Assembly: GCA_024401565.1 (NCBI GenBank)
Contig: JAKSKU010000012.1
Location: 1 to 63,669 of the forward strand
From: Paludibacteraceae bacterium
Lineage (GTDB): Bacteria > Bacteroidota > Bacteroidia > Bacteroidales > Paludibacteraceae
Direction of reading: 5' to 3'
DNA length: 63,669 nucleotides
Position 1 is the stretch's first letter. Each line of letters starts with the position of its first letter. The translations under genes were made by a program, and so were the position numbers. Shown in pieces: positions 19,536 to 38,655 of this stretch. The notes under the pieces were generated by a model that was given only the letters and a program-made list of their open reading frames with translations, was not told the DNA's origin and ran no database searches.

Positions 19536-19600
19536 AATGCGGAATTATGAATGCTGAATGCAAAATTAAATTTCGCATTCAGCATTTCGCATTCGTCATT
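19536..19600. repeat. GCATTC/GCATTT array between the A2M and LysE genes
   Basis: Six or more AATGCGG/AATGCTGAATGC words fill the gap; on the plus strand they read TTCGCATTCAGCATTTCGC. The array directly touches the stop codon of the alpha-2-macroglobulin-like gene at 19596. Confidence 0.85.
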
Positions 19601-22600
19601 TCACCAATACTTTTCCTCCTTCAGAGTTTGCTCCAAATGCAGGGCAGTAGTGTGGGATGACTTTTGTGATTCCTTGTGTGTATTCTCCACTCTGTGTCAC
19701 ATGCAGTGTGTATTCGAATACTCGTGTGCCTTTGCTGATACGGTCGAAGAACATGCTGTATTCGCTGTCGGTGATGCTCTGGTAGTAAATCTTGCCGTCT
19801 GCCCATTCGATTCCTGGTCGTTTTCTGACTGGCTCAAGACAAGCTGCGCGTAGGTCGAGCACCTGCACAAAGTCGATGTCTCTGTCGCTTCTTAGCGTCA
19901 TCACAATCTTCACTTTGTCGCCCTTCTGAAGTTTTTCTCCTTCCTTGATCTCCTGAAGCATCTCTTTGTTGTCGTCGCCATCGTTGGCAATCACCACTTT
20001 GTACATCTTCTTCTTGATCTCGATTCCGCTCTTTCCACTTGTGATCTCTGTGTATGGGGCGTCGTAAGAGATGTAGATGCCTCCGATTCCTTCCTGTCCC
20101 TGTGGCTGCTCGACATGGATATTGCACAACTCTGGTGTGAAGCTGTCTTTGTCGTAGTGGATCTTTATATATCCGTCGCCGGACGTTCTCTTCGCGTCGA
20201 CTTGCTTGCCTCCGATTTTAATTATTGCTTCATTTTCACGGGCAGGTTTGAAACCTGCCCCTACATCCATTTTTTGACGATCTCCCACAAGTGCACCGAT
20301 GGCTGCGAGTGTGCTCTGGGCGTTATTCCACTGAGTTGTCTCTTTCTTTGTGATGAGATGGAAACGAAGGTCGGATAGTTCCTTCGCGTCGCAACCGGTC
20401 TTCATAAATGCTTTTGTCAGCATTGCGTGTGTTGAAATGGCATTTCCATAACGGCCCCAACTATCCTGGTTGCCTTTCCAATACATTCCGAATTCTTCAG
20501 TATTGGTTGCACTCTGACGCAATGACTCGACGATTGATTTTGCCTCTTTCTCGTCTCCCTTCATATTTAGCACGATCGCAAACGATGCTTTGCCAAACAA
20601 CGTCATCTCCTTGATCTCCTTGTCTGCTTTCTTCACGTAGTAATCAAGAATCTTCTTTGTGTTGTTGCTGAGATTTTTATCGTATGAGATTCTGATTCTG
20701 AAGACGTCGAACAACCATTCTCTGTCGGCAGGATACCTGTTATTAGACTCCTGTCCGTTAGACGCACGTCCGTGCGTCTCTACGAGTTCTTTATTGTATG
20801 CTTCGGTCAATGCGTTGTCGATGTATTTCACTGCATTCTTCAACATCTTCTCGCATTCCTTTGGTAAGACGCCGTATTCACGCATCTCCACCATTTTCTC
20901 TGCCACAGCCACAGTGACATACTCGCTTGATTTGAATCCGCTAAACCACGCGAATCCACCATCTGCTTGCTGTAGTTTTTCCAACTTGCTGATGGCATCC
21001 TTGTTGGCTTTGGTGATTCTATCTTTGTCGTATAGCTCAACAATCTTCGCTCTCTGCTCACTTTCGCTTTTTGCCTCGCACATCCAAGGTGTTTGCTTCA
21101 TCAATACTTCTTTCAACTCTTGGTTCTGATCGAGTGGCGACGCTGCATGATCGCCCTCTTTCTTCCATTCCTCCACTACGGTTTTGATTTCAGGGTAGAG
21201 TAGGGCGATACGTTGTGCCATCTGGTTGACGTAGACAGACGAGATGAATTCCGTCGCACACTCATATCGTGCGTCTTTTATTGACGGTAGAGCCATAAGC
21301 GACTGCCATACAGCATTGTCGGTATACTCCACAATGAGTTCGGCATCTTTCATCTCTTTCTCATTGTAGTCGATTGAGAAATCTTTTGCCTCTCCACCTC
21401 TGACGTGCATTGATTTGCTCTTCACCACGTGTGTGCCGTCTGGCAACACTGGCAACTGATGAACCTCACCGTCGGAGAATGTTCCGCTCTTGCCGACCAT
21501 CTTAACTTCGATTGAAGCCACTCCTGCTGGCACATCGAAACTCCACTCTTCAACTTTGGATTTATTTCCTTCCAAACTGAACTTGCGGCTCTGCTGAGAA
21601 ATGATTTTGTCAGTAGCAACGTCTTTGATGATGATTGCGACGTCGCCAGACTTTTCTTTCTCATCGTTATTGGTAATTGTAGTGGCAAACGAACATTTGT
21701 CTCCCTTTCTCACGAATCTTGGCAAATTTGCTTTAACCGCAAACGGCATCTGAGTCTGCAAGTCTTCACTTGTGATGCAACTGTTGGCTTTCTTGTTGTG
21801 AGCAAATACAATCATTCTCCACGCTGTCAACGCGTCCGGAGCGGTATATTCAAACTCTACACTTCCATCAGCTGCAGTTGTCAACTGAGGATAGAAGAAT
21901 GCCGTCTCCACAAAATTGTCACGGACTTTGACGTCTGAAAAATCGGCAGCAGGTGGTATTGGTTCTGGATTGGCTCCATTTGAACCAACTTCATCATCCA
22001 TTACTGCAATCTTCTTTTCTGTATAATCAGCTTGAAGCGATAATTCTATAGATTCTTCTACTGCATCCATGCTTCTCATAAGCTTTGGAGCTGCCATTTT
22101 TCTCGACATCATCGCCGATTTACTTCCCATCATAAATAATTTAGGCTCTGGCATTAAGATATTTTCCCATAGGAATTTAGTGATTGGTAATTCCTGGTAT
22201 GAACCATACCAACTTCCTTTATCTATATTGAAGTAGTGCCAGTATTGGTGAGATATATCTGTATTATAAGTACGATGATATGTGTAATAGTGAGCAAGTG
22301 TAATCCACCTTGGCAACATTTCGGAAAGACTTTTATCAACCATTACTGCTGCAACCTCATAGTTGCTATCAGTCGGTTTAACTACCATCTTTACCTTTTG
22401 CTTCTCTCCTGGAACTATTTTGCGGACAATCTCAAGAATCTCAATCTCTTGTTTTTGTTTGTCATCTTTTCTTTTGATTGTCACAGACTCTTCCCAAGAA
22501 TTGCTATTTCTTACAATGATGAATTCGATTTTGATTGTTTTTGTGTCGTTATTTGCAAAGTATTTGTTAAATGCTACTTTGTAAATTTTCTGCTCATTAT

Positions 22601-25726: not shown

Positions 25727-27157
25727 TTACTTTAATGGAGACGCTACGATTACGTAATCGCCATTTACAGTTTTGTCATACCAAGTGTCGTTGGCAAAGA
25801 AGTATGTCTTGCCGTTTATGTCAACCTGTTTTGCTGAAGAAGGAAGCACTACTGCTGGTGCTGCTGATCTTGTGACAGGAGCAGCCACTGTATCTTTGGC
25901 TGTCTGTGCAGGAGCTGCTTCAGGAGCCTTTGCGTTCTCTTCAGGAGCCTTTGCGTTCTCTTCAGGAGCCTTAGTGTTCTGAACTGCAACTGGTTCCTCA
26001 ATCATCATGAATCCACCCTCTACAGGAATGTACCATTTGAAATCAGCGAAGTAGAAGTCTTGGTTAGCAACCTCAATCTTCTTATTGCTTTCAGGCAAAG
26101 CCTCTACGATTGTGGCACCTTCAGTAGGTGCGTCTACAACCTGGTAGCCATTGTCGGTAGCAACAAACCAAGATCCTTCGCCTACGAAGTAATTCTTGCC
26201 GTTAACAACGATTGAAGAGCACTCGTATGGCAACTCTGCTACAGTAAGAACTTCGTCTTCTGTGATTGGAGTTTCGACGATTTCGTAACCATTGTTCTTT
26301 GGAGCAAACCAAGTGCCCTGACCATAGTAATAAGTCACGTTGCCAACGTATACAGGGAAGCAACGGTAAGGTAGAGTAGTGAAGTACCAGCCGTATGGAT
26401 ATGGTACCCACTCATAACCCCAGTATGGATCCCAACGGTAGTAACGTCCACAGTGCACATAGTATCTGCAGTCTCCATAATAGAATGGATGGTAGTGGTA
26501 TCCAATGTGAGAGTGGTATGTATGTCCGTGACGCTTTGTTACGCGAGGATGATGGTCATTTCTACGAGTTGTATGTCCGATTCTTGATGTTCCGACTCTA
26601 GATGCGCTTACGCGTGGTGCTTCATTTCTGTGTGATGTCGCATTTACACGTGCTCCTGTTGTGCGTACAGGACGTGCAGTCACCTCACGTGAGCGAGATG
26701 TCGTAACTCTTGCTGGAGTAGCCGAAGTCGATCTCACAGAAGAAGCAGATCTTGCAGAAGAAGCAGACGCTGATGTGCTGCGTGAACTGCTTGATGGAGT
26801 TGAATATGTGCGTGCTCGACTGCCTGCTGTAGAACGCGAAGGGCTAGAGTATGAAGAGCTTGTTGATGGCGAACTGCTGTATGAGCTAGACGAAGATCTG
26901 CCATAGCTAGACGAAGAACCACCACTGTAGCTTGAACGGCTAGACGAAGAACTGCCACTGTAGCTTGAACGGCTGGATGAAGAACCACCACTGTAGCTTG
27001 AATGGCTAGATGAAGAACCACTACTGTAGCTAGATGAGTGACCACCACTACTACTTCCTCCTCTTGATCTCTGCGCTGACGCTGAGAATGATACTAGAAG
27101 GAACACTAGAGAAAATGATATCTCAATTAAAAAACGCATTCTTTTCATATCCTTCAA
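25727..27157 (-). CDS. Exported Ser/Tyr-rich protein, DUF6515-like
   Basis: The 476-residue protein has a signal peptide (about 1-28, ending SFSASAQ) and a low-complexity region (29-190) made of SSYSGGSSSSR-type repeats passing into Ser/Arg-rich sequence. An aromatic segment follows (HPFYYGDCRYYVHCGRYYRWDPYWGY). Next come four small repeats of the form IVVNGKNYFVGEGSWFVATDNGYQVV, the last at the C-terminus. A KAPEEN triplet repeat and a Pro/Ala linker (about 385-430) separate repeats three and four. The hydrophobic YYxxGxW modules resemble DUF6515 cell-envelope proteins; this assignment is tentative. It probably binds wall or surface components. No catalytic motif is seen. Confidence 0.6.
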   Translation of the reverse strand: MKDMKRMRFLIEISFSLVFLLVSFSASAQRSRGGSSSGGHSSSYSSGSSSSHSSYSGGSSSSRSSYSGSSSSSRSSYSGGSSSSYGRSSSSSYSSSPSTSSSYSSPSRSTAGSRARTYSTPSSSSRSTSASASSARSASSVRSTSATPARVTTSRSREVTARPVRTTGARVNATSHRNEAPRVSASRVGTSRIGHTTRRNDHHPRVTKRHGHTYHSHIGYHYHPFYYGDCRYYVHCGRYYRWDPYWGYEWVPYPYGWYFTTLPYRCFPVYVGNVTYYYGQGTWFAPKNNGYEIVETPITEDEVLTVAELPYECSSIVVNGKNYFVGEGSWFVATDNGYQVVDAPTEGATIVEALPESNKKIEVANQDFYFADFKWYIPVEGGFMMIEEPVAVQNTKAPEENAKAPEENAKAPEAAPAQTAKDTVAAPVTRSAAPAVVLPSSAKQVDINGKTYFFANDTWYDKTVNGDYVIVASPLK

Positions 27158-27179: not shown

Positions 27180-27425
27180 AGACTCTCTTTCGTTTTTACA
27201 TAAAAACAAATTTTAAAAAATGTTATAAAATGGAAAATAGAGTGAATTTTGTGTTGAATAATAGTGTTATAGTGTGAAAAGTGACTTTAATATTTGTTTT
27301 TTTTCGCTTTTTTTGAGGAGATTGTATTGCGTCTGTTCAAAATAGAGATTGTTAGGTGTGCCTCTTTAATATTGACACACTTATGTGAACTGATGTTGTT
27401 TTTTGTTAATTAATGTTGTGCATGG

Positions 27426-27456
27426 TTTGATTATACTTTATTTGTTTCTATTTTTG
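27426..27456 (+). promoter_or_regulatory. Consensus promoter of the radical SAM operon
   Basis: TTTG (27426-27429), a 19-bp spacer and TATTTTTG (27449-27456) match the Bacteroidota consensus fully. The first start codon is 113 bp downstream, leaving a leader of about 105 nt. The rest of the 411-bp divergent gap is AT-rich with no visible gene. Confidence 0.75.
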
Positions 27457-27568
27457 TCGAATAAACATTAATTCAAGATTACAGGTACTAATGATTGTTT
27501 ATATACGAGTTGCCCAAAGACTCTTGTCTTGGCCAACAACGATATAATCATTTTTAAATTGGAATTGT

Positions 27569-27973
27569 ATGAAAAAGATATTTTTGACTATTATTTTGTC
27601 GTTGTCAGCATTGGCACTTTTTGCTAAGGAGCCTGTAGCTGAACATCATAGAAGAGCACCGCAACGTCATGAGCATGTGTATGTGAATTTGCCTTATTCT
27701 TCTGAGGAAATCGATGATATTGTGGATGTGGTTAAGAAACTCAGCTTCGATTCTGACAGGAAAGCTACACTTAAGTTGCTTGTCAGAATGCGTCCTATTA
27801 CGGTAGACGGATTGGAGAAGATTGCCAAAATGTTCTCTTTTGATAAGGAACGCACGGAGTTTTTGGTTTATGCATACGATTACTGTGTCGACAAAGAGTC
27901 TTTCTATAAGCTGAAAAATGTCTATACTTTCAGTTCTGAAGCAGATAATCTTTTTAAAAAGTTGGGTATATAA
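27569..27973 (+). CDS. Exported DUF4476 protein
   Basis: This 134-residue protein has a signal peptide (MKKIFLTIILSLSALALFA) and one DUF4476 domain (about 45-132). The domain shows the helical pattern IVDVVKKLSFDSDRKATLKLLV...MFSFDKERTEFLVYAYDYCVDKESFYKLKNVYTFSSEADNLF. The family is common in Bacteroidota and has no known function. It is the first gene of the apparent operon, followed after 12 bp by the next start. Whether it belongs to the pathway or only shares the promoter is open. Confidence 0.85.
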   Translation: MKKIFLTIILSLSALALFAKEPVAEHHRRAPQRHEHVYVNLPYSSEEIDDIVDVVKKLSFDSDRKATLKLLVRMRPITVDGLEKIAKMFSFDKERTEFLVYAYDYCVDKESFYKLKNVYTFSSEADNLFKKLGI

Positions 27974-27985
27974 TCAGCTCGTATT

Positions 27986-28306
27986 ATGGATAAAAATGAA
28001 TTGAGAGGTTTCATTAATAGAATAATTGACGCGTCTAAATCCCAATCTGGATCTTTTAACATTGTTAAAGCGCAACTTCATTTGGAAACACTCAAGCAGG
28101 AGTTGGTTTTGGAAAATGTTCCAAAACCGCTTATCGATTATGTTGAAATGGCAAAACATTATGCTCGTTTGCAACCTGGCTCTAATTTGAGGGAATTAAA
28201 TGAAGATGAGGACCTTAAGCGTGTGGCTGAAATAGTGGAACAAGAAAAAAAGGCTGAGGCGGCCAGACGTGAGCAAATGGATTACAGACGTTGCTACGGA
28301 TGTTGA
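27986..28306 (+). CDS. 106-residue protein with C-terminal YRRCYGC
   Basis: I do not recognise a family. The protein is acidic and helical, without signal peptide or membrane segment: SFNIVKAQLHLETLKQELVLENVPKPLIDYVEMAKHYARL, then a Glu/Lys/Ala-rich helix. It ends with MDYRRCYGC; its only two cysteines are in the last four residues. A helical leader with a short Cys/Tyr-containing tail, placed upstream of two radical SAM genes, would fit a modified-peptide precursor, but that is speculation; it could equally be a small structural or metal-binding protein. It lies 12 bp after the DUF4476 gene and 26 bp before the next. Confidence 0.7.
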   Translation: MDKNELRGFINRIIDASKSQSGSFNIVKAQLHLETLKQELVLENVPKPLIDYVEMAKHYARLQPGSNLRELNEDEDLKRVAEIVEQEKKAEAARREQMDYRRCYGC

Positions 28307-28332
28307 TTGTTCTTCCTTAAATACAACTGTTT

Positions 28333-29142
28333 ATGGATATCTTGACTTTAATTCGTGGTATATTGGGGATTTTGTTGATCTATCGATTAATAAATAAATC
28401 TAATGACGACGAAAAAAAAGGTGATCAGAAAAAAAACTCGGTTGCTTCGGATGACAATAGCCAATCGGGTAGAGTGGAGGCCAACAGTGATGACGCGGCT
28501 CAACATTTGGGCGAACGTGCTGTCAGCTCTCCTTCTGATGGGTTCATCGTGCTGAACAACAAGATTATTGCGTATGTCGGCAATGACAAGAATGTGGTTG
28601 TGCCAGAGGGTATAACAGAAATAAAAGCTTATGCCTTTGCTTTTTTGTGCTTAGACAGGATTGTCTTGCCGTCTACAATCACAAATTTTGAAAATCAGCA
28701 TAAGCTTACTGTAGAAGAGCTGGATATGAGCAAGACAACATTGACGGATGTTGATTTAGGTGGCACATGTTTAATCAAGAGATTGAAACCTGGTCAGGAT
28801 AATGATGGCTCCGTTTTTGAGGTGATATTTCCTCCTTGCCCTGACAGACGAGTGGATGACACTCCGCAGCAGGAGTATTCAAAAGATTTTATAGTGCTTG
28901 ACAACAAGTTGATCGCATACGTCGGTAATAGCGTTGATATTATTGTTCCGGAAGGTATTCAGGAAATAAAGAAGTTTGCTTTCTATAATCAAAATGTAGG
29001 AAGAATAGTCACTCCGTCGTCATTACGTGTGTTTGAGGAACAATCTTGTTTGACTGTCTGCAAATTGGACTTAAGTAGATCTAGTTTGGATAAAATATGT
29101 CTTAGAGACAGTTCTGTAATGGAACTGGTGATGCCGCAGTAA
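28333..29142 (+). CDS. Membrane-anchored LRR_5-like protein
   Basis: The 269-residue protein has a single N-terminal membrane segment (about 3-20, MDILTLIRGILGILLIYRL), a charged Lys/Asp/Ser linker (22-70) and two copies of a unit of about 95 residues. Each begins FIVLxNKxIAYVGN, continues VVPEGIxEIKxxAF and ends with LTVxxLDxSxxxL. These are degenerate BspA-type leucine-rich repeats. The same style of repeat forms the N-terminal half of the next protein, so the two may recognise the same partner, one at the membrane and one in the cytosol. The stop is 42 bp before the next start. Confidence 0.7.
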   Translation: MDILTLIRGILGILLIYRLINKSNDDEKKGDQKKNSVASDDNSQSGRVEANSDDAAQHLGERAVSSPSDGFIVLNNKIIAYVGNDKNVVVPEGITEIKAYAFAFLCLDRIVLPSTITNFENQHKLTVEELDMSKTTLTDVDLGGTCLIKRLKPGQDNDGSVFEVIFPPCPDRRVDDTPQQEYSKDFIVLDNKLIAYVGNSVDIIVPEGIQEIKKFAFYNQNVGRIVTPSSLRVFEEQSCLTVCKLDLSRSSLDKICLRDSSVMELVMPQ

Positions 29143-29184
29143 ACAGTGATGAGCATGATAGTCGAAAAACTATAAACCGAATTT

Positions 29185-31152
29185 ATGGGCATATATCTTT
29201 ACAAAGAATACCGTTGTGATGATAATCCGAATATAATTGTGATGTATCTTGACAACGATGAGTGCAGACTCGTAGGATACGAGGGTGATGAGGAGGATGT
29301 GTCTGTCCCTGAATACGTTGCGGTTAAAGGTTCCATCTTGCGTATTGTTTCCGTAGGCATGTCTTGGTGTAAGAAAAGAAAACTTACATTGCCAGAATCT
29401 GTGGCTGAAATCAGAGATCTTGGTTTTTCCAAATTAGAGGAACTTGTTCTGCCGAGTTCCGTAAAGTTTATACAAAAAGGTGCTTTTCGCCAAAGTGACA
29501 ATCTTAAACGTGTTGTTCTGCCTGAATCTCTGACTGCTATTCCGGAAGAGGCATTTGAACGATGCAATAAACTTGAAAGCATTGTTCTTCCATCAAATCT
29601 GACATCGATTGGATATAGTGCGTTCAGGGATTGCACGTCGCTGAAAGAAGTCTTTTTTTCTGAGACTTTGGCCACAATAGGCAACTATGCGTTTGCTGGA
29701 TGCTCGTCTTTGAAAAAAGTTGTTCTTCCAGAATCTCTTGCAAATATAGGTGATAATGCGTTTGAAAGGTCTGGTATTGAAAGTGTTGTCATGCCAGACA
29801 CTCTTAAAGAAATAGGACAATCCGCGTTCTCTTATTGTGGGTCTCTTAAAAAGATCAGAATCCCACTTGGATTGGATGAAATCAAAGAGAATGTTTTCGA
29901 CAATTCGGCTCTTGAAAGTGTCAATCTTCTTAATGTGAAAAAGGTTTCTGGTTGGGCGTTCGGTAATTGCAAAAATTTGAAAGACGTTATTATGCCGTTG
30001 ACGGTGGAGATTGGAAACCATGCCTTTTTCGGATGCGATAATCTGGAAAGAGTCTTTGCTCCCAATCTGGGGACGATTGAAGACGGTGCTTTTGGCAAAT
30101 GTGAAAAACTCCGAGTTGTTGAGTCCACGCAAAAACTGATTAAAATCGCTGGTTCTGCGTTCGACTGCTGTTTAAGCTTGAGTAGGATTACTATGTCGGG
30201 AAACGTTGATCTAGAAGACGGTACTTTCCGTGATACCCAGACGAATATCTTGGAACTATACGGAAAGAAACTGAACACTCCTAAATACAACTGTCAGAAG
30301 AGCGGACACGAGAAACTGTTGATTCGTAAACCGAAACTACGTCTGTTTGTCTATTTGTCAAACGACTGCAATGCTTTCTGTGAGTTTTGCTCAAACGCCA
30401 AATACAGACATCAGTCTGGAAAATTCGACCTTAAAGTGTTTGAGGAGACGCTTCTGTATCTGAAGGAGAGAGACGTACTCAAAGGTGTGTCGTTTACGGG
30501 CGGTGAGCCGACGATGAATATGCCTCTCCTTAATGAGGCCGTAAACACGGTTTATAAAGCGTTGGGTGAAGACGTTGAGGTTGCCATAAGCACCAACGGA
30601 TATGCCTTGATGGACATGCTTTCCATGGACAGCGTCTCTTTACTGGAATCGATCCATTTGAGCAGACATCATTTCTCTGATGTTCAGAACAATACGATAT
30701 TCCATCAGCAGATGTGCACTACGGATGATATTCGTCTATTCCAGGAGTCGATAGAGGACAAGAACACCTTGGTGCTCAACTGCAATTTGATAAAAGGAAA
30801 AATTGACAGTGTGGACAGAGCTAAAAAGTTTATGGATTGGGCATCGTCTTTAGATATAAAGAAATGTGCCTTTGTCACATTGATGCCATTCAACCCGTTT
30901 TGTAAGGCACATGTCGTCAAAAGTCAGGATCTCTTTTATGAAGCTCACCCAGATATGTTGAGAATACGAGATTTTAAATGCGACTGGTGCAGCTGTCTCG
31001 ACGGCTATTACTACAGCACAGACAATAATATGATGGCCTACTATGTCCGTCAGGTGACTAACACGTCTCCAGATATAGTTTCCCGATTGATATATACGTC
31101 CGACAATCACCTGAAAACAGGTTTTGGCCCGGAATCAACAATACTATTTTGA
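29185..31152 (+). CDS. LRR_5 repeat / radical SAM fusion protein
   Basis: The 655-residue protein lacks a signal peptide, so it is probably cytosolic. Residues about 40-355 are BspA-type LRR_5 repeats (VLPESLTAIPEEAFERCNKL, SIGYSAFRDCTSL and others). Residues about 375-640 are a radical SAM domain: the 4Fe-4S motif is CNAFCEFC (C395, C399, C402), with FTGGEP near 437-442 and STNGY near 469. C-terminal cysteines (C599, C602, C604 in CDWCSC) could hold an auxiliary cluster. Radical SAM enzymes use SAM and Fe-S clusters to make a 5'-deoxyadenosyl radical. Fusion to LRR_5 is unusual; the repeats might dock a peptide or protein substrate. The substrate is unknown. Confidence 0.85.
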   Translation: MGIYLYKEYRCDDNPNIIVMYLDNDECRLVGYEGDEEDVSVPEYVAVKGSILRIVSVGMSWCKKRKLTLPESVAEIRDLGFSKLEELVLPSSVKFIQKGAFRQSDNLKRVVLPESLTAIPEEAFERCNKLESIVLPSNLTSIGYSAFRDCTSLKEVFFSETLATIGNYAFAGCSSLKKVVLPESLANIGDNAFERSGIESVVMPDTLKEIGQSAFSYCGSLKKIRIPLGLDEIKENVFDNSALESVNLLNVKKVSGWAFGNCKNLKDVIMPLTVEIGNHAFFGCDNLERVFAPNLGTIEDGAFGKCEKLRVVESTQKLIKIAGSAFDCCLSLSRITMSGNVDLEDGTFRDTQTNILELYGKKLNTPKYNCQKSGHEKLLIRKPKLRLFVYLSNDCNAFCEFCSNAKYRHQSGKFDLKVFEETLLYLKERDVLKGVSFTGGEPTMNMPLLNEAVNTVYKALGEDVEVAISTNGYALMDMLSMDSVSLLESIHLSRHHFSDVQNNTIFHQQMCTTDDIRLFQESIEDKNTLVLNCNLIKGKIDSVDRAKKFMDWASSLDIKKCAFVTLMPFNPFCKAHVVKSQDLFYEAHPDMLRIRDFKCDWCSCLDGYYYSTDNNMMAYYVRQVTNTSPDIVSRLIYTSDNHLKTGFGPESTILF

Positions 31153-31157
31153 AGAAT

Positions 31158-32210
31158 ATGAACGCAGCAGGTAAGCCACGTCAAAACTACTATAGAAATC
31201 TACTTACGACCAATCCTCATTTCTTTTGTGAGGAGGCTCATAAAACGTGGGGCATAGATTTTTCTGTTGATGATGCTTTGGAGAAAATAGAAGTGAAGGG
31301 CCGTTCGAGCTCTAATCTATTTGATTTTAAGAATAGAGAGCATATCATCAGAATAGAAGATTTGTCGAGAGAAGAACATACAAGATTCAGTTGCAGTGTT
31401 TTGATGGCGTTGCATGACGCTCGATGCTATATCGTTCCGGAGCTGGTCTCTGGCAACACTGGTTGCTTGAAAGTTTTTCGTGAGAATGGAGGAGCGTCGA
31501 TGTCCGTGTTCAAGTTTAAAAACGGGTATACTTTGGAGTTGTGGAAATCACCGTCCAAGCACCAGACGGATTTGATTGTAAAGAATTATATCCTTATGAA
31601 TGACGCTTTGTCTCGCCTTGGCTTGCCGTTGGATATAGATAAGTTTGGCTTGAACAACCAGATAAGCACTTGCATTGATAATTTGACGCAGACAGATTGT
31701 TGGATGGACAGACATCCGTTAGCCATGGAACTGAACAGACATTGGCATACTTTTTGTGAAAAGACAGATTCAATTATGAAGATGTCGGAAAAACTGTTGA
31801 ATGGCAAAAACAACCAGATAATCCATGGAGATATACATCAGGAGAACATACTTTTTGATTGTGTTAAAGATGAAGACGGTACTGTAGATGAACGTTTTGT
31901 GTCGTTCCTTGATTTTGAAGAGGTTGCTGTCGCACCAGTAGAAGTAGACGTGATATTCACAGCCTTAAGAATGGCCAAAACAGATAAGAAGAATCCAAGA
32001 TTTGCATTTGATATGGATGCGGTCGATTATTTCTTGAAACGTTATGGCGAGAGTGTTTATAATATTTACGCAGACGACCGTGAGTTTTGGCATTCATATT
32101 TTGGATTGCAGCAGTCGGTTGTATATCTTCGCCATCATGATGTTTGGTCGTTAAGCAGGGAAAACGGATTTTTCCAATGTTTCAATGAAGTTTTAAACTA
32201 CAACGTATGA
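31158..32210 (+). CDS. APH/choline-kinase-fold phosphotransferase
   Basis: I chose ATG 31158, 5 bp after the previous stop (350 residues); a TTG at 31149 would overlap that stop. The kinase catalytic loop is HGDIHQENILF (223-233), the HGDxxxxN motif of aminoglycoside phosphotransferases and choline kinases. LDFEEV (251-256) supplies the metal-binding acid. The N-lobe is diverged but shows RSSSNLFDFKNREHIIRIEDLSREEHTRF. Members phosphorylate small hydroxyl substrates. Next to a nucleotidyltransferase and a glycosyltransferase it may activate a pathway intermediate or protect against the product. The end overlaps the next start by 4 bp (ATGA). Confidence 0.78.
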   Translation: MNAAGKPRQNYYRNLLTTNPHFFCEEAHKTWGIDFSVDDALEKIEVKGRSSSNLFDFKNREHIIRIEDLSREEHTRFSCSVLMALHDARCYIVPELVSGNTGCLKVFRENGGASMSVFKFKNGYTLELWKSPSKHQTDLIVKNYILMNDALSRLGLPLDIDKFGLNNQISTCIDNLTQTDCWMDRHPLAMELNRHWHTFCEKTDSIMKMSEKLLNGKNNQIIHGDIHQENILFDCVKDEDGTVDERFVSFLDFEEVAVAPVEVDVIFTALRMAKTDKKNPRFAFDMDAVDYFLKRYGESVYNIYADDREFWHSYFGLQQSVVYLRHHDVWSLSRENGFFQCFNEVLNYNV

Positions 32211-33103
32211 AAAGAGCAGTCGTATTGTTTGACGGTGGAAATTGCCCTACATCTGAAACCGTAGCCCGACTTGAACGAAGTTATGATGAACTTATTTTCG
32301 TTCTTGTCTGGAGTGACACATCGTCTGTAGTAGACAAAGGATGGCATCCTGGCAATGTTTTGGCCGAAACAAAGGAGATGATCTCCCGTTACAGCCAACG
32401 TCCGTTTTATATATTTCCGTTTGATGGCCGCCAACTATTGGCAGATCAACGTATTATCCGACTTTCTCATTTCTGTCCGCGTTTTGACACGATTATGGCT
32501 GATAATGAGGTATATAGGAATGTTGCCCGAATGATTGGGTATGAAGTGGAAAATGGGGAGTTTGTGGAAGTGGAGACGGTGACAGACAGAAGCAACGTCA
32601 GCCGAGCGTTGTATGTGACGCGGGCCCAACCTTTTCATAACGGCCATCGTGAATTCCTGCAGCATATATTGGAACGTCATGATGAGGCTATACTGTCGAT
32701 AGCGTGTACGGAGCAGGCATTGTCGCTTCACAACCCCGCGACTGCAGGCGAACGCATGGAGATGATAGGAGCTTATGTCTTGCCGAATTGCCATAAACGA
32801 GTGTGGCTGGTGCCGTTCGCTCACACTCCATACATGATGGAGAAAATTAAGAATATAGCATGGTTTATGCCTCGTTTCACACATATCTACGGTTCCAACC
32901 CGGCCCATCTGCTTATGGGAGAGATGGAGCATCTTGGCACTTGTTTGCCGGAAATGGAATCTTCGGTGCGAGCCACACAAGTGAGGGAAAGACTATCCAA
33001 GGGCTTGCCAATCAGCGGTATGGTGCCGGAGGAAAGTGAAAAGATATTGTATGAACTAGGCATAGACAAACGCATAAAGTATCTTACAGAAAATGGATTT
33101 TAG
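32207..33103 (+). CDS. Tandem-duplicated HxGH nucleotidyltransferase (NMNAT/cytidylyltransferase-like)
   Basis: The 298-residue protein has an active C-terminal half (about 130-298): RAQPFHNGH with the HxGH motif at 144-147, a conserved IYGSNPAHL segment and SSVRATQVRERL (252-263), the counterpart of the ISSTxIR motif. This is the archaeal-type NMN adenylyltransferase/cytidylyltransferase fold. The N-terminal half (1-125) appears to be a degenerate copy: CPRFDTIMADNEVYRNVARMIGYEV lines up with MPRFTHIYGSNPAHLLMGEMEHLG, and HPGNVLAETKEMISRY with NPATAGERMEMIGAY, but HxGH is absent. It would transfer AMP or CMP to a phosphorylated substrate, perhaps made by the preceding kinase. It overlaps both neighbours. 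Confidence 0.75.
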   Translation: MKRAVVLFDGGNCPTSETVARLERSYDELIFVLVWSDTSSVVDKGWHPGNVLAETKEMISRYSQRPFYIFPFDGRQLLADQRIIRLSHFCPRFDTIMADNEVYRNVARMIGYEVENGEFVEVETVTDRSNVSRALYVTRAQPFHNGHREFLQHILERHDEAILSIACTEQALSLHNPATAGERMEMIGAYVLPNCHKRVWLVPFAHTPYMMEKIKNIAWFMPRFTHIYGSNPAHLLMGEMEHLGTCLPEMESSVRATQVRERLSKGLPISGMVPEESEKILYELGIDKRIKYLTENGF

Positions 33104-35150
33104 AGGCAAACGTATATTGTTTGTCATGATTCCTGAAAAAGGACACATTCATCCTTTGATAGGACTGGCAAAACACCTTTATGAGCAAGGTGCCAAATTG
33201 GCTGTCTTCAGCAGAAAAAACTTGAAGCGGGAGATCGCCATGTCTGGTATCGACGCGGATCTGTTCGCGTCAGAGGATGTTATGCCATCATGGTTCTCCT
33301 CAAACGGAGCTTCATTTGCCGAACATCAGAACGATAAGGAGTGGATGAGCAGATGGCTGAAAACCATGCTTATCGACGTCGTGCCTAATCAGGTGTCTGC
33401 TCTGGCTGAAACAGTGGAGCAGTTTGTCCCTGAACTCATAATCGCGGATCCGATGGTGTATGCCGTGCATATTGTGGCGTCACGGAAAAATATACCATGG
33501 GTGGCAGTGTCAAGCTCGATAAACCAGCTGGCACCAGTGACGTGGAACTCGGATCTGACTGAAGCGTTCGACAAATATGCGGTGGAAAGGGCGGAACTGT
33601 TTGACGACAGACCGACATTCAGGTTGTGTGACGTTGTGTCTCCGTGGCTCAATTTTGCCTATTTTTCTGAAACTTATATGCCGCGATACTTGAGCCAAAA
33701 TTTTCATGCGTTCATGGTTGGCTCACCTTGTGATTTTGACATGACGAGAGGTGATGAACCGGAGTTCCCGTATGAGACATTAGCAGATGGCAAGAAACTC
33801 CTGCTTGTGTCGCTCGGAAGCCAGAATTTTTATCATCCGGAAGTCTATCAGGCAGTCGTTGATTCTGTGAAAGAGAGAGATGATGTTCAACTGGTTATGT
33901 CCGTCGGAAACACTCCGCGGTCTTTGCTGGAGAATCTTCCTGATGACGCTGTTGTCTTGCCCTATGTCCCACAGCTGACACTTTTGAAACGTGCGTATGC
34001 ATTCATAACGCATGGAGGCTCTAATTCCACGTTGGAAGCACTTGCCAATGGCGTGCCGGTTGGAATAATCCCATTGTGCAACGACCAGTTTTTTCAGGCT
34101 GAAATGGCTCGCTTGTCTAATGTCGGTGTCGTGTTGGATGGAATAAACATTGACGCTGATTCTTATCGACGTCTGATTAATGAATTGATAGATAATAATG
34201 CAGCATATCGTCATAATGCACTGCAAGTTATGGAGTCGATACGCAAGTCGGGCGGAGTGGGGCAGATGACTGAGCTGATAGCCAACCTGATGGAGAATCA
34301 CCAACCATTACGCCCTGCTGTGGATGTCAAGAAAAAGAAGAGGAGACTTTATATTTCTCCGCATCTTGACGATGTGGCTCTTGGCTGTGGAATGAAACTG
34401 TGGCTGGAACGAGATGATGAGAATATTGTGGCGACGGTTTTTACAGATGGTGGCGCGACGCATCCGCAGCGTCGAAACGATGATATAGAAGTGCTGAAGC
34501 GTCTCAACGTCCATTATATACACATGGGGTATAAGGACGCACCGTTCAGAGACAGTGGATACCGTGATTTCAAAACTATTATGTTTCATAGAGACGTTGC
34601 AGAGACAGAACTTGCAGACAGATTGTTTCTGCACATAGAAGCCATGTGTGACCAGTTTTTGCCGGATGAAGTCTATTTTCCTTTAGGCGTCGGTGGACAT
34701 GTTGATCACAATGTGGTCGCGTCGGTCGGCAGACGTATGATGGAAAGCCGAAGCGTCTACTTCTATGAGGATGCACCTTACAATAGTGTGCATAATTGGA
34801 CAGCATACAGATTGAAATCGTTCTTTGGGGCAAATATAGAATATGATTCCTCTATTAAGACGTTGCGCGAACAAGGACTGCCATTTGTCAATAATCTGCT
34901 TGATAAGGCAGGCAATGGAGACGCTTGTGAGATCGTCTACAAAGAAGAGATGGAATATTTGACTGAAGAGACGGCAGATAATCAGACCGTTTTAATAAAA
35001 CATTATACTATTGATATTGACAAAGAAGAAAAAGGCAGGATAGTCGCTGGCTATACGACCGAGTGGAAAACATTTTTAGGCTCGGAAATGCAGAAACAGC
35101 TTAATGCAGAGAAATACTATAAAATAGAGAAAAATGCAGACGGAATTTAG
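33093..35150 (+). CDS. GT1 glycosyltransferase / PIG-L deacetylase fusion
   Basis: The 685-residue protein has two enzymes. Residues 1-405 form a GT-B glycosyltransferase of the GT1 (UGT/macrolide GT) type: GHIHPLIGLAKHL at the N-terminus, VSLGSQNFYHP near 240, and the nucleotide-sugar site PYVPQLTLLKRAYAFITHGG with SNSTLEAL (to 317). Residues about 416-640 form a PIG-L deacetylase: SPHLDDVALGCG (zinc and catalytic residues at 423-427) and GVGGHVDHN (HxxH at 536-539). In mycothiol, bacillithiol and some aminoglycoside pathways a GT adds N-acetylglucosamine and a PIG-L enzyme then removes acetyl. One polypeptide here may do both. It overlaps the next gene by 17 bp. Confidence 0.85.
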   Translation: MDFRGKRILFVMIPEKGHIHPLIGLAKHLYEQGAKLAVFSRKNLKREIAMSGIDADLFASEDVMPSWFSSNGASFAEHQNDKEWMSRWLKTMLIDVVPNQVSALAETVEQFVPELIIADPMVYAVHIVASRKNIPWVAVSSSINQLAPVTWNSDLTEAFDKYAVERAELFDDRPTFRLCDVVSPWLNFAYFSETYMPRYLSQNFHAFMVGSPCDFDMTRGDEPEFPYETLADGKKLLLVSLGSQNFYHPEVYQAVVDSVKERDDVQLVMSVGNTPRSLLENLPDDAVVLPYVPQLTLLKRAYAFITHGGSNSTLEALANGVPVGIIPLCNDQFFQAEMARLSNVGVVLDGINIDADSYRRLINELIDNNAAYRHNALQVMESIRKSGGVGQMTELIANLMENHQPLRPAVDVKKKKRRLYISPHLDDVALGCGMKLWLERDDENIVATVFTDGGATHPQRRNDDIEVLKRLNVHYIHMGYKDAPFRDSGYRDFKTIMFHRDVAETELADRLFLHIEAMCDQFLPDEVYFPLGVGGHVDHNVVASVGRRMMESRSVYFYEDAPYNSVHNWTAYRLKSFFGANIEYDSSIKTLREQGLPFVNNLLDKAGNGDACEIVYKEEMEYLTEETADNQTVLIKHYTIDIDKEEKGRIVAGYTTEWKTFLGSEMQKQLNAEKYYKIEKNADGI

Positions 35151-36633
35151 TATAAATGAGATCGATAGAATAGAGTCGTTCTACGAGAATATCCTAAAAG
35201 AGACTCCATTGCTGGTGAGAAACGAAATGCCATCGGCTGTATATGATGAGTTTTGCAAAATACGCGAGAAAGCATGCAGGTCAGTCTTGGATTCACTGGA
35301 CGGCAATCTGCCACCAATGAGTGACGTGCTGACATCCGACAACAAGATCAGGATTACTGTGGAGACGGCAAATGCCAAACCATTGTATGTGGAGAATTTA
35401 AGACAGAAATCAGCGTACTTGTTTGACGGAGTCTGCCGACAAATGACAAGTCGTGGAGCTGTGGTGGAAGAGAACGGAAGTTCCAAACTGCAGACGGCCG
35501 CAACGATGAGTATGGTAGACGAGACTGTGCTTTTCCCGGACGACGCGTATGAGCAGTTGTACAAAAGCATGGAGAATTTGCGTTGGCTGCTCGGACAGTT
35601 CAATCTTAAGAAGTATGGTTTGCAATATGGTTTTGCTGTCGATGATATCTGTCGGTTACGCGTCTATTATAAAAATGATTCAGATTTGGATTTTTTGAGG
35701 CAGATGACGCCACGTTTTGTGTCGCGAGAATGCCAGTTTGAGTACATTAAGAGCGGAATGCCATATGATGGAATTGTGCTGGCGTTGGAGGCAGTGTGCT
35801 ATAAAAAAGGATTCTCGGAAAAAGGGGATAAATACAAAGTGGTGAACGGACGCATCCGAACAGAGTCGTTCGAACTGCATGTCTGCGAACACTGCAATTT
35901 GCGATGCAACCAGTGCTGCAATTTGTCACCGTTCCATAAAGAGCATTTCATGTCGCTTGACGAAGTGAAAAGAATATGCGATTTCCTTGAGAAACACATT
36001 GCTCCGGATGTGATCAAAGTGGCAGGAGGAGAGCCACTGCTGCATCCACAGTTGGCTGAAATACTGAAGACCATCAAGCAACGTTTCCCACAGACTAATC
36101 TGAGAATCGTCACAAACGGAGTGTTGGCAAACAGATATCTGACTGAAGAGATAATGGCCACTATCGACCAGTTGTGGATCTCCAACTACAGAAATGTGGC
36201 AGTGCCGGAAAACACTGTGGTTAAGATAAAGCAGATGGCGAAAGACAAATTCGTCTTGCTGAACATAAAAGACGTCGATCAATTCTACAATATCGTCCTG
36301 ACCGAGAAAAACGAGGATGAGAGCAACGTCAGTGCAATCTATGATAACTGTTGGATGAAACACCGATGTCTGATGGTACGCAAGAACACATTCTTCAAGT
36401 GTACGCGTGCTGCTTATATTGAAGACCAGCAGTACATCTATGATATGCCGACAAACGTCAAGGCGGCAGACGAAGGAATAAGCATAGATGACCCTGACTT
36501 TCAGCAGAAAGCGTTGCTGTATCTCAACGACAAAGACGGGCTGCAATCATGTAGCTATTGTCTTGGCGTGTCAGGGACACTGTTTGATATCAGACAAATG
36601 AAAAAAGAGGAGGTTCAAGCCAAAATGCTATAA
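35134..36633 (+). CDS. Radical SAM enzyme with 245-residue N-terminal extension
   Basis: The 499-residue protein starts within the previous gene. Residues 1-245 are not recognised (LLGQFNLKKYGLQYGFAVDD is one distinctive stretch). The radical SAM core follows: CEHCNLRCNQC with the CxxxCxxC cysteines at C254, C258 and C261, AGGEP near 297-301 and RIVTNGV near 325. The C-terminal part has several cysteines (CWMKHRCLMV..FFKCTRA, then SCSYCLG) that could hold an auxiliary SPASM/Twitch-like cluster. Such enzymes modify peptides, sugars or cyclitols. It is the last gene of the operon; no terminator is evident after it. Confidence 0.82.
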   Translation: MQTEFSINEIDRIESFYENILKETPLLVRNEMPSAVYDEFCKIREKACRSVLDSLDGNLPPMSDVLTSDNKIRITVETANAKPLYVENLRQKSAYLFDGVCRQMTSRGAVVEENGSSKLQTAATMSMVDETVLFPDDAYEQLYKSMENLRWLLGQFNLKKYGLQYGFAVDDICRLRVYYKNDSDLDFLRQMTPRFVSRECQFEYIKSGMPYDGIVLALEAVCYKKGFSEKGDKYKVVNGRIRTESFELHVCEHCNLRCNQCCNLSPFHKEHFMSLDEVKRICDFLEKHIAPDVIKVAGGEPLLHPQLAEILKTIKQRFPQTNLRIVTNGVLANRYLTEEIMATIDQLWISNYRNVAVPENTVVKIKQMAKDKFVLLNIKDVDQFYNIVLTEKNEDESNVSAIYDNCWMKHRCLMVRKNTFFKCTRAAYIEDQQYIYDMPTNVKAADEGISIDDPDFQQKALLYLNDKDGLQSCSYCLGVSGTLFDIRQMKKEEVQAKML

Positions 36634-36705
36634 GTGACAGAGTGTGAAAAACATTTAATTTTCATTAATTCTCAATTTCTTAGTGAAAAATATCCGTAAT
36701 TTTTG

Positions 36706-36713
36706 TATTTTTG
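36706..36713 (+). promoter_or_regulatory. -7 box before the small T9SS protein gene
   Basis: TATTTTTG matches TAnnTTTG 39 bp before the ATG at 36752. No good -33 box is seen at the expected distance. Confidence 0.4.
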
Positions 36714-36751
36714 CCGCTAAATGTAATAGGCATATAGATAATTTAAAAGAT

Positions 36752-37246
36752 ATGAATAAGCATAAAATGAAAAGAGCAGTTGTTGCTTTTATGGCAGCTA
36801 TTCTTTGTCAGGGTGCTTTTGCAGAAGTTAAAACTCAGATTACGGTTGTGGACAATAATGCTAAGAGCACCGTTTACAATGTTGATGAGGACGGATATAT
36901 AACATTTGCAGAAAAGAGTCTTCTAATAAAGGAGAACCGTGACAAAAAAACGCCAGTTGAGCTTAAATTGGCAGATGTCTCTAAACTTCTAGTGAAAGAG
37001 ATAACAGGTGTGGACAACACATTGTCAGAATCACAATCTATTTCATTGTATCCAAATCCAGCATCTTCCGAGGTGTTTGTTTCTGGAATCGACGGAAAAC
37101 AGATGGTAGAAATATTCTCTATCAGTGGTGTCCTTGTAAAAAAGGTTAGCGTGGAGAATGGATCTGCAATTAATATTAGTGACCTTCGTCAGGGTGTTTA
37201 CATCATGAAGGTTGATGGTAAAACTGTAAAACTTTGTAAGATATGA
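36752..37246 (+). CDS. Small secreted protein with T9SS type A sorting domain
   Basis: The ATG at 36752 gives 164 residues with a signal peptide (MNKHKMKRAVVAFMAAILCQGAFA); a longer upstream frame has no such feature and would overlap the promoter. A short region of about 65 residues leads to a type A sorting domain: SLYPNPASSEVFVSG, then VEIFSISGVLVKKV and GVYIMKVDGKTVKL. It overlaps the next gene by 4 bp (ATGA), implying translational coupling. The same layout, small CTD protein then CTD-less repeat protein, occurs at 572/1014. Confidence 0.85.
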   Translation: MNKHKMKRAVVAFMAAILCQGAFAEVKTQITVVDNNAKSTVYNVDEDGYITFAEKSLLIKENRDKKTPVELKLADVSKLLVKEITGVDNTLSESQSISLYPNPASSEVFVSGIDGKQMVEIFSISGVLVKKVSVENGSAINISDLRQGVYIMKVDGKTVKLCKI

Positions 37247-38655
37247 TTAAAAGAAATTACCTTTTAGCATCTGCATTGTTTTGTTCAGCGGCTTCATTCG
37301 CAGATGTAAATTTGTCATTTTTCAGCTCTGATAATGTCAGCGTTCGTGTTGTCTCTTCAGAAGAGAAAACGATGACTTTTGGAGCTGGAAAGATCTCTTT
37401 CGATGGAGAAAACTATGAAATGTCCAAGATCGACAGTATTGTGGTCAACCCATATGTTTCTGTTACGTTTGATGGCGACAAGGTTGTCGTGTCTAATCCG
37501 TTTGACAGTGTGAACGTAGAGGTGTCTGACGCCAATGTAGTCATCAATTCGGAATATCTGTCTAGAGAGATCAAGTACAAGTTCTCTGGATCAAGTAAGA
37601 ATGGAAGCGTATTGTTCTCATCTTTGTATAAGTCGAAGTTTGAGTTGGATAACCTTGATTTGACAAGTGCGGGAGTAAATCCTCCTATTTGTATCTCAAC
37701 AAAGAAGAACACGGAAGTAAAACTTGTCGGACAGAATTCGTTGGCGAATAGCAAGGCCGATACTGTAGGAGCTACAATGCGTAGCCGCGGACAGTTTGAG
37801 ATCAAAGGAGACGGTAGCCTTAACATCACAAGTGTTGTGGGTCACGGAATCCAGAGTAGCGACTATGTGGATGTGAAGAATGGAAAAATCACTATCACTG
37901 CAGAGTCTGACGGTATCCACGTTAATGATTACTATATGCAGTCGGGTGGTGATGTTGTGATCAGCACAAAGGCAGACGGTGTTGATGTGGGTGAAGGTTA
38001 TGCACAGATCGACGGCGGAACATTCACTGTTACTTCTGATGCTAATGAGTCAAGAGGTATCCGTTGCACATTTGAGGAAGGAAAAGAAAACACAGCTGAC
38101 ATTAACATTAATGGTGGTAAGATTGATATCCGACTTGGAGGTAAAGGTTCTAGAGGTTTGAAAGCAGACGGTAATGTGACTGTTAAAGGTGGCGAGTTGC
38201 TTGTTTTGATGACTGGCTCTACATATATTTCTGGCACTAATCCCAATGCTGACACTACTGTTACTTGTGGCGTTAAGTCAGATAAGACTTTCTTGGTTGA
38301 AGATGGTCTTGTAAGTATCATCTGCGGAAGCTCAGCTAAAGGTTCTCGTTGCTTGCAGGCAGACGCTGCAGTGACGTTGAATGGAGGTGCTACAGTTGTT
38401 CATCAGAATTCAGGTGACAAGCTTGGAAAGAAGCCAAATGTCATTAAGACAAATGGTAATCTCAGATTCAAGAGCAGTGCGAATCTGTTTGTTAAGTCGG
38501 TCTCTGGCGTAAAGACATTTAATATAGACGGAAAACCATATTGGGGTGGTTCTGAAGCCGTATACGAGGAGGAAGACGTAGAGGATGACGAGCACTGTAT
38601 GTGTGATCTAAGTGTTGTGCCAAGTGAGTGGGCTTATACGGATTTAAGCAAATAA
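37243..38655 (+). CDS. Exported beta-helix protein, DUF4353 (carbohydrate-binding-like)
   Basis: The 470-residue protein has a signal peptide (MIKRNYLLASALFCSAASFA), a segment resembling the DG...SIxF start of its BspA-type counterpart, and a right-handed beta-helix-like body with short repeated turns: GHGIQSSDYVDVKNGKITIT, SDGIHVNDYYMQSGGDVVIS, ADGVDVGEGYAQIDGGTFTV, SRGLKADGNVTVKGGELLV. This pattern is typical of DUF4353, annotated as carbohydrate-binding. It ends with an acidic stretch and SEWAYTDLSK, with no T9SS sorting domain. Translational coupling to the small CTD protein suggests the two work together. The ligand is unknown. Confidence 0.75.
   Translation: MIKRNYLLASALFCSAASFADVNLSFFSSDNVSVRVVSSEEKTMTFGAGKISFDGENYEMSKIDSIVVNPYVSVTFDGDKVVVSNPFDSVNVEVSDANVVINSEYLSREIKYKFSGSSKNGSVLFSSLYKSKFELDNLDLTSAGVNPPICISTKKNTEVKLVGQNSLANSKADTVGATMRSRGQFEIKGDGSLNITSVVGHGIQSSDYVDVKNGKITITAESDGIHVNDYYMQSGGDVVISTKADGVDVGEGYAQIDGGTFTVTSDANESRGIRCTFEEGKENTADININGGKIDIRLGGKGSRGLKADGNVTVKGGELLVLMTGSTYISGTNPNADTTVTCGVKSDKTFLVEDGLVSIICGSSAKGSRCLQADAAVTLNGGATVVHQNSGDKLGKKPNVIKTNGNLRFKSSANLFVKSVSGVKTFNIDGKPYWGGSEAVYEEEDVEDDEHCMCDLSVVPSEWAYTDLSK

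Follow-up and report, generated by a model that had tools for sequence, protein, structure and literature searches.

A rare eight-gene island in a Paludibacteraceae genome brings together glycosyltransferase, deacetylase, chorismatase-fold and radical SAM domains

Results

The window analyzed here is a 63,669-nucleotide stretch of a Paludibacteraceae bacterium genome (assembly GCA_024401565.1, contig JAKSKU010000012.1), and our subject is a run of eight same-strand open reading frames (ORFs) at 27569-36633. Ten ORFs between 27569 and 38655 were examined; genes 1-8 make up the unit that we call the island, and genes 9-10 form its right flank. A first-pass annotation made from the sequence alone had already recognized the eight-gene run, and the ORF coordinates bear it out. 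Domain searches likewise uphold the enzyme classes proposed there: two radical S-adenosylmethionine (SAM) enzymes, an APH-like kinase, an HxGH nucleotidyltransferase, a family 1 glycosyltransferase (GT1) and a PIG-L deacetylase. That reading overlooked the LRR_5 leucine-rich repeats (LRR) of genes 3 and 4, a chorismatase-like domain in gene 8 and a second domain in gene 6 that resembles nicotinamide mononucleotide (NMN) adenylyltransferases (NMNAT). The features of the island, all on the forward strand, are:

27426..27456: Bacteroidota-type promoter-like string, TTTG-N19-TATTTTTG, from a pattern scan
27569..27973: gene 1, secreted-looking protein with DUF4476 (Pfam, 61 bits against a cut-off of 22.5)
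27986..28306: gene 2, 106 residues, no family above cut-off
28333..29142: gene 3, BspA-type LRR_5 protein with a hydrophobic N-terminus (LRR_5, 3.4e-9)
29185..30249: gene 4, N-terminal part, BspA-type LRR_5 repeats (7.2e-70)
30250..31152: gene 4, C-terminal part, radical SAM 1, with CxxxCxxC and further conserved cysteines (Radical_SAM, 5.1e-12)
31149..32210: gene 5, APH-like kinase (APH, 27.8 bits against a cut-off of 23.2)
32207..32602: gene 6, N-terminal domain, NMNAT-like fold without an HxGH motif
32603..33103: gene 6, C-terminal domain, archaeal-NMNAT-like nucleotidyltransferase
33093..34292: gene 7, macrolide-glycosyltransferase-like GT1 domain (UDPGT, 51.8 bits against a cut-off of 19.5; PDB matches)
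34347..35150: gene 7, PIG-L deacetylase domain with HLDD and GGHVDH motifs (PF02585, 39.4 against 28.2 bits)
35134..35802: gene 8, residues 1-223, chorismatase-fold domain without the catalytic glutamate
35851..36603: gene 8, residues 240-490, SpeY/HygY-type twitch radical SAM domain (radical SAM 2), with Cys412 at 36367-36369

From gene 1 to gene 8 the intergenic spacings are 12, 26, 42, -4, -4, -11 and -17 bp. The 5-bp gap previously placed before gene 5 holds with an ATG start at 31158 and gives way to the -4 bp spacing with the TTG at 31149. The consensus promoter claimed at 27426-27456 is present as a string matching what we take to be the Bacteroidota promoter consensus. Because this pattern is not clearly rarer than chance in the window (five matches against 2.47 expected, with at least five in 9 of 100 shuffles), the string is weak evidence on its own.

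A conserved core within a probable insertion

A scan of genome contigs recovers two further loci, both in metagenome-assembled genomes (MAGs), one from water-buffalo rumen (L007, in genome G074) and one from horse faeces (L008). Both records are named Paludibacteraceae and fall in a single genus, which is not that of the window. The order kinase, nucleotidyltransferase, then GT1-PIG-L-chorismatase-like-radical SAM is the same at all three loci. Identities between the window and the rumen and horse loci, respectively, are 54 and 51% for gene 6, 54 and 50% for gene 7, 64 and 62% for gene 8, and, across that part of the kinase which aligns, about 34 and 36%. The first-pass annotation named homologues scattered and never adjacent as grounds against a single pathway; genes 5-8 are instead immediate neighbours, with their order kept, at both related loci. 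Its treatment of genes 7 and 8 as separate proteins does not carry over to those loci, where they form a single ORF of 1193 residues (rumen) or 1187 residues (horse). In the window the two genes lie in different frames and share 17 bp at an A-run (35127-35150); the split may stem from fission of the gene, from a frameshift or from a slip in assembly.

The limits of the island were defined with four of the eight other genomes of the window's genus (G019, G048, G068 and G110; G085, G117 and G125 were left out, and the G099 stretch served for gene 1 only). In these four, homologues of the window segments 25727-27157 and 36683-38655 adjoin each other, and no match to genes 1-8 is seen in those stretches. 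The window aligns with these empty sites up to about 27264-27280 on the left and from about 36693 at the earliest on the right. The segment from about 27280 to 36693 is thus an insertion in this genome or a clean loss in the four others, and these limits agree with those first given for the unit. No convincing pair of terminal direct repeats is found at the insertion ends. The flanking features are:

19596-25529, reverse strand: bacterial alpha-2-macroglobulin-like protein, homologue beside the empty site
25727-27157, reverse strand: serine-rich DUF6515 protein, homologue beside the empty site
36683-38655: protein with a type IX secretion system sorting tail and a Cthe_2159-like carbohydrate-binding protein; their homologues lie next to each other in the four same-genus stretches that lack the island

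The genes at 36683 and 37243 were considered as further operon members and rejected; in the four same-genus regions, their homologues lie beside that of gene 25727.

Because the four-gene core is collinear at both other loci and the limits match an insertion relative to four same-genus genomes, the eight genes are real and constitute one unit beyond chance.

The twitch radical SAM domain of gene 8

Among solved structures, the closest sequence to the gene 8 radical SAM domain is 7wzv, the twitch radical SAM dehydrogenase SpeY (6.2e-23). This chain scores 84.3 bits, and the best viperin-like chain reaches 30.7. A role in defence was also considered; the matches to prokaryotic viperin (pVip) are partial, at 52.5 bits over about 100 residues only. 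The cysteines of the core cluster (C254, C258 and C261, CxxxCxxC) and of the twitch region (C406, C423, C473 and C476) are invariant in the three homologues. All seven align to C24/C28/C31 and C175/C194/C240/C243 of the best plasmid match, a protein of Streptomyces sp. SAT1 (L027) that is 28% identical and is encoded in a cluster carrying an APH(7'')-Ia gene and sugar enzymes. We infer that this protein is HygY of hygromycin B biosynthesis; searched in turn against plasmids, it matches only itself. These relationships to SpeY and to the radical SAM enzyme of a hygromycin-B-type cluster strengthen the link to aminoglycoside-type chemistry made in the first-pass annotation.

One further cysteine, Cys412, aligns to C183 of the HygY-like protein. 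It does so in each of the three homologues, at an unchanged distance from the following cysteine, and SpeY has serine at the equivalent position. We take Cys183 to be the hydrogen donor of HygY. Because the cysteine aligned with that donor is conserved, the gene 8 domain is predicted to be an epimerase acting on a sugar carbon. The title of a HygY paper in the reference list of PMC10991966 states that mutation of one cysteine reveals dehydrogenase activity. Shared with SpeY (spectinomycin) and HygY (hygromycin B) are the core and twitch cysteines, together with the HygY-type cysteine; the island enzyme differs from both in being fused behind a chorismatase-fold domain and, in the relatives, also behind GT1-PIG-L.

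Elsewhere, a 588-residue protein of genome G632 (L010, 514-2280) has a C-terminal radical SAM domain distantly related to that of gene 8 and a weakly LanC-like N-terminal region (23.3 bits, cut-off 23.2).

A chorismatase fold without its catalytic glutamate

Residues 1-223 of gene 8 have a chorismatase fold and match positions 120-310 of the 311-position model TIGR04444 (7.5e-15, 55 bits, far under the cut-off of 325). The position of the catalytic glutamate, Glu334 in Hyg5, is occupied by Ala217 in gene 8 and by methionine in both relatives. According to PMC7170507, mutation of its counterpart in Nat-hyg5 abolishes unantimycin production. Compared with the chorismatases FkbO and Hyg5, gene 8 lacks the N-terminal part, retains 7 of 29 invariant columns and carries a fused radical SAM domain. 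Two arginines invariant in five aligned chorismatase homologues are kept, and residues 117-180 are 70% identical among the three island homologues. A working chorismatase was rejected as the simplest reading of this domain because the catalytic glutamate is absent, and the domain probably no longer hydrolyses chorismate.

The chorismatase model matches 5 of 296 phylum genomes, the window's own included, none over the cut-off. Four same-phylum proteins that match it (L011, L012, L013 and L015) end in LLVEIE or LLFEID and are more ordinary-looking members of the family. Chorismatase and radical SAM are both mentioned in one publication, PMC11888242.

Genes 5-7: kinase, nucleotidyltransferase, glycosyltransferase and deacetylase

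The gene 7 GT1 domain scores 147.7 bits against the macrolide glycosyltransferase model TIGR01426, below its curated cut-off of 260. It contains the C-terminal HGGxNS that we take to be a GT1 UDP-glycosyltransferase motif, and H18, D119, H307 to S312, D331 and Q332 are invariant across homologues. So are H424, D426, D427, H536, D538 and H539 in the zinc-site motifs of the PIG-L domain.

The kinase motifs HGDIHQEN and FLDF are invariant in three aligned sequences. Against the APH model the rumen homologue reaches 58.8 bits and the horse homologue 22.8, just below the cut-off; no PDB sequence matches the kinase profile at E 0.01.

Gene 6 consists of two NMNAT folds in tandem, the first of them degenerate. 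The fold of the first domain is closest to archaeal NMN adenylyltransferase, with NadR also among the fold matches. The second contains an R-x-Q-P-F-H-x-G-H motif and a second arginine; residues R139, H144, H147 and R260 are invariant in three sequences and align to MthNMNAT. Gene 6 is unlike archaeal NMN adenylyltransferase and NadR in its tandem arrangement, in falling below family cut-offs (88.7 bits against 181.2 for TIGR01527, NMN adenylyltransferase) and in having its APH-like kinase as a separate protein. Because the genome carries its own NadD elsewhere, on contig C7 and over the family cut-off, gene 6 is not needed as a housekeeping NMNAT.

Genes 1-4: the variable part

Neither gene 1 nor gene 2 has a match in the rumen or horse locus. 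A 50% identical relative of gene 1 occurs in G099, with no other island gene in its 14-kb stretch. Across 65 residues, gene 3 shares 47% identity with the beginning of the LRR region in the horse LRR-kinase, a match confined to the LRR part, and the rumen locus has no match to gene 3 or to LRR. In the window LRR_5 repeats are fused to radical SAM 1, and at the horse locus to the kinase; because their fusion partners change among loci, the repeats look accessory. Radical SAM 1 is 49% identical to a stand-alone protein of the horse locus (48% in a comparison with gene 4) and 29% identical to a protein on a Prevotella sp. E2-28 plasmid (L053). Of the many radical SAM families to which it shows a weak resemblance, two are the YydG and W_rSAM maturases. 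The plasmid cluster (7714-16592) comprises ADP-ribosylglycohydrolase, NUDIX-NrtR, DUF6717, DUF1810, LRR_5 and two radical SAM genes, the first of which encodes the relative.

Prevalence

Gene 8 occurs in 3 of 300 family genomes, and in none of the eight other genomes of the window's genus. It is matched in 2 of 16 genomes in the genus of G074 and in 2 of 393 in the order (itself and one radical-SAM-only match). Gene 6 occurs in the same three family genomes and in 1 of 364 in the order (itself), and gene 7 in 1 of 296 in the phylum (itself). Scans of viral sequences reveal no relative of the gene 8 or gene 7 proteins and two partial, weak matches to gene 6; among phages, one weak radical SAM match is seen. 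On plasmids, gene 8 matches 13 records, none covering 80% and all involving the radical SAM part or Streptomyces chorismatases. Gene 7 matches 131 plasmid records, again none covering 80%; among the 15 matches listed, all are to the glycosyltransferase part. Gene 6 matches three haloarchaeal plasmid records, one annotated as NMN adenylyltransferase, and the kinase none. The enzyme families are known, and their architecture is found at only three loci among the sequences searched. The island is rare and patchy, a distribution that fits horizontal spread without proving it.

Discussion

We tentatively favour the view that this patchily inherited island builds an amino-sugar glycoside, phosphorylated or activated by a nucleotide, by aminoglycoside-like steps, the last of them carried out on one protein or an adjacent pair, although we hold this to be somewhat short of an even chance. 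The domains, their motifs, the gene order, the fusion in the relatives and the limits of the insertion are observed; we infer the substrates, the sequence of steps and the epimerisation as follows. The gene 5 kinase would phosphorylate a small hydroxylated compound, a sugar being the likeliest candidate, and the C-terminal domain of gene 6 would add a nucleotide to it. The outcome would be either an activated donor or a product capped with a nucleotide. The GT1 domain would then link the sugar to an acceptor and the PIG-L domain take off an N-acetyl group. Finally, the twitch radical SAM domain would abstract hydrogen from a sugar carbon, with Cys412 returning hydrogen to the other face to leave an inverted centre. 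The chorismatase-fold domain may bind a carboxylated acceptor or have a scaffolding role, and radical SAM 1 and the LRR repeats would be accessory.

A close precedent is the glycosyltransferase, deacetylase and radical SAM sequence of butirosin and neomycin biosynthesis (BtrM, BtrD and BtrN), in which the glycosyltransferase belongs to a family other than GT1. The island resembles it in glycosyl transfer, PIG-L deacetylation and radical SAM oxidation or epimerisation, and differs in its GT1 enzyme, its fused domains and the lack of a cyclitol synthase or aminotransferase in the island (none scores above cut-off in domain searches confined to genes 1-10). BtrN is also named in PMC10991966. A search for publications combining PIG-L, radical SAM, glycosyltransferase and biosynthetic gene cluster found none; most subscription literature lay outside that search, which is not proof of absence in print.

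Several observations weigh against this view. Domain searches detect no transporter, aminotransferase or acceptor-making gene in the island, and gene 6 could serve a cofactor route. The Cys412 column lies directly downstream of a two-residue gap in the alignment. Both fold models are of low confidence (mean pLDDT 54 and 60.5), the radical SAM part of the first being poorest. The contig scan used one genome per species and two short peptide patterns and can miss distant relatives; with prevalence so low, only three loci, two from a single genus, underlie the conclusions. The first-pass annotation placed two radical SAM enzymes in the pathway; radical SAM 1 appears optional, being not found in the 99% complete genome of the rumen locus, where the sole match is the gene-8-like domain. 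The proposal made there of one unassigned pathway with a glycosylated, deacetylated and radical-modified product survives as the best reading, with the correction that the relatives' loci do not match genes 1 and 2 and that gene 3 matches nothing but the LRR part of the horse LRR-kinase.

The main rival is a nucleotide-cofactor or NAD-like dinucleotide route, in which the kinase and the NMNAT-like enzyme would cap a modified glycoside with AMP and the product would be a cofactor or signal and not an activated donor. NadR, which combines a kinase with AMP capping of nicotinamide riboside, offers the comparison. The sequence of gene 6 is closest to archaeal NMN adenylyltransferase, as is the fold of its first domain; the separate NadD frees it from housekeeping; and the plasmid relative of radical SAM 1 lies beside ADP-ribosylglycohydrolase, NUDIX-NrtR, DUF1810 and LRR_5 genes. 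Yet gene 6 scores below the NMNAT family cut-offs, the plasmid cluster shares one enzyme and LRR repeats with the island and nothing else, and a cofactor route alone does not explain GT1 plus PIG-L. We judge it unlikely.

The other candidates are less likely. That the radical SAM enzymes and glycosyltransferase act on a small protein (gene 1, gene 2 or an LRR protein), in the manner of ribosomally synthesized and post-translationally modified peptides, is suggested by the pairing of two radical SAM enzymes with LRR domains, the horse counterpart of the gene 3 LRR part, the weak resemblance of radical SAM 1 to YydG and W_rSAM maturases and the weakly LanC-like region fused to a distant twitch radical SAM domain in G632. 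Against it, genes 1 and 2 are unmatched in the relatives, no LRR or gene 3 match is seen at the rumen locus, and the nearest relatives of radical SAM 2 work in sugar routes and not on peptides; we regard the idea as improbable. A true aminoglycoside-type antibiotic cluster like those for butirosin and neomycin, in which the gene 5 kinase would provide self-resistance, would account for the glycosyltransferase, PIG-L, HygY/SpeY-like radical SAM and APH-fold kinase together. Against it, the island genes include no cyclitol synthase, aminotransferase or exporter, and the kinase, part of the conserved core and LRR-fused in the horse MAG, is unlike a resistance gene, so that we give it only a slim chance. 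Slimmer still is the chance of a pathway to chorismate-derived aromatic or cyclohexadiene glycosides with a working chorismatase: the fold, both arginines and the conserved 117-180 segment speak for it, but the Glu-to-Ala/Met/Met replacement, the loss of most invariant columns and the missing N-terminal part speak against it.

Returning to the amino-sugar glycoside pathway, a bolder version, which we consider doubtful, would make the single polypeptide of GT1, PIG-L, retooled chorismatase fold and radical SAM epimerase a multidomain assembly line of a kind not seen before. Fed by the kinase and tandem NMNAT, it would supply gut Bacteroidota with amino-sugar metabolites of a new class, nucleotide-linked or phosphorylated, the chorismatase fold having turned into a holder of, or new catalyst for, the acceptor. 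A chorismatase fold that lacks its catalytic residue is nonetheless strongly conserved over part of its length. The epimerase assignment makes a clear prediction, namely that Cys412 makes the enzyme an epimerase and that a C412A variant would be a dehydrogenase. If the amino-sugar glycoside pathway is correct, aminoglycoside-style radical sugar editing would occur in gut-type Bacteroidota in a compact, fused form that could be tested with one or two proteins.

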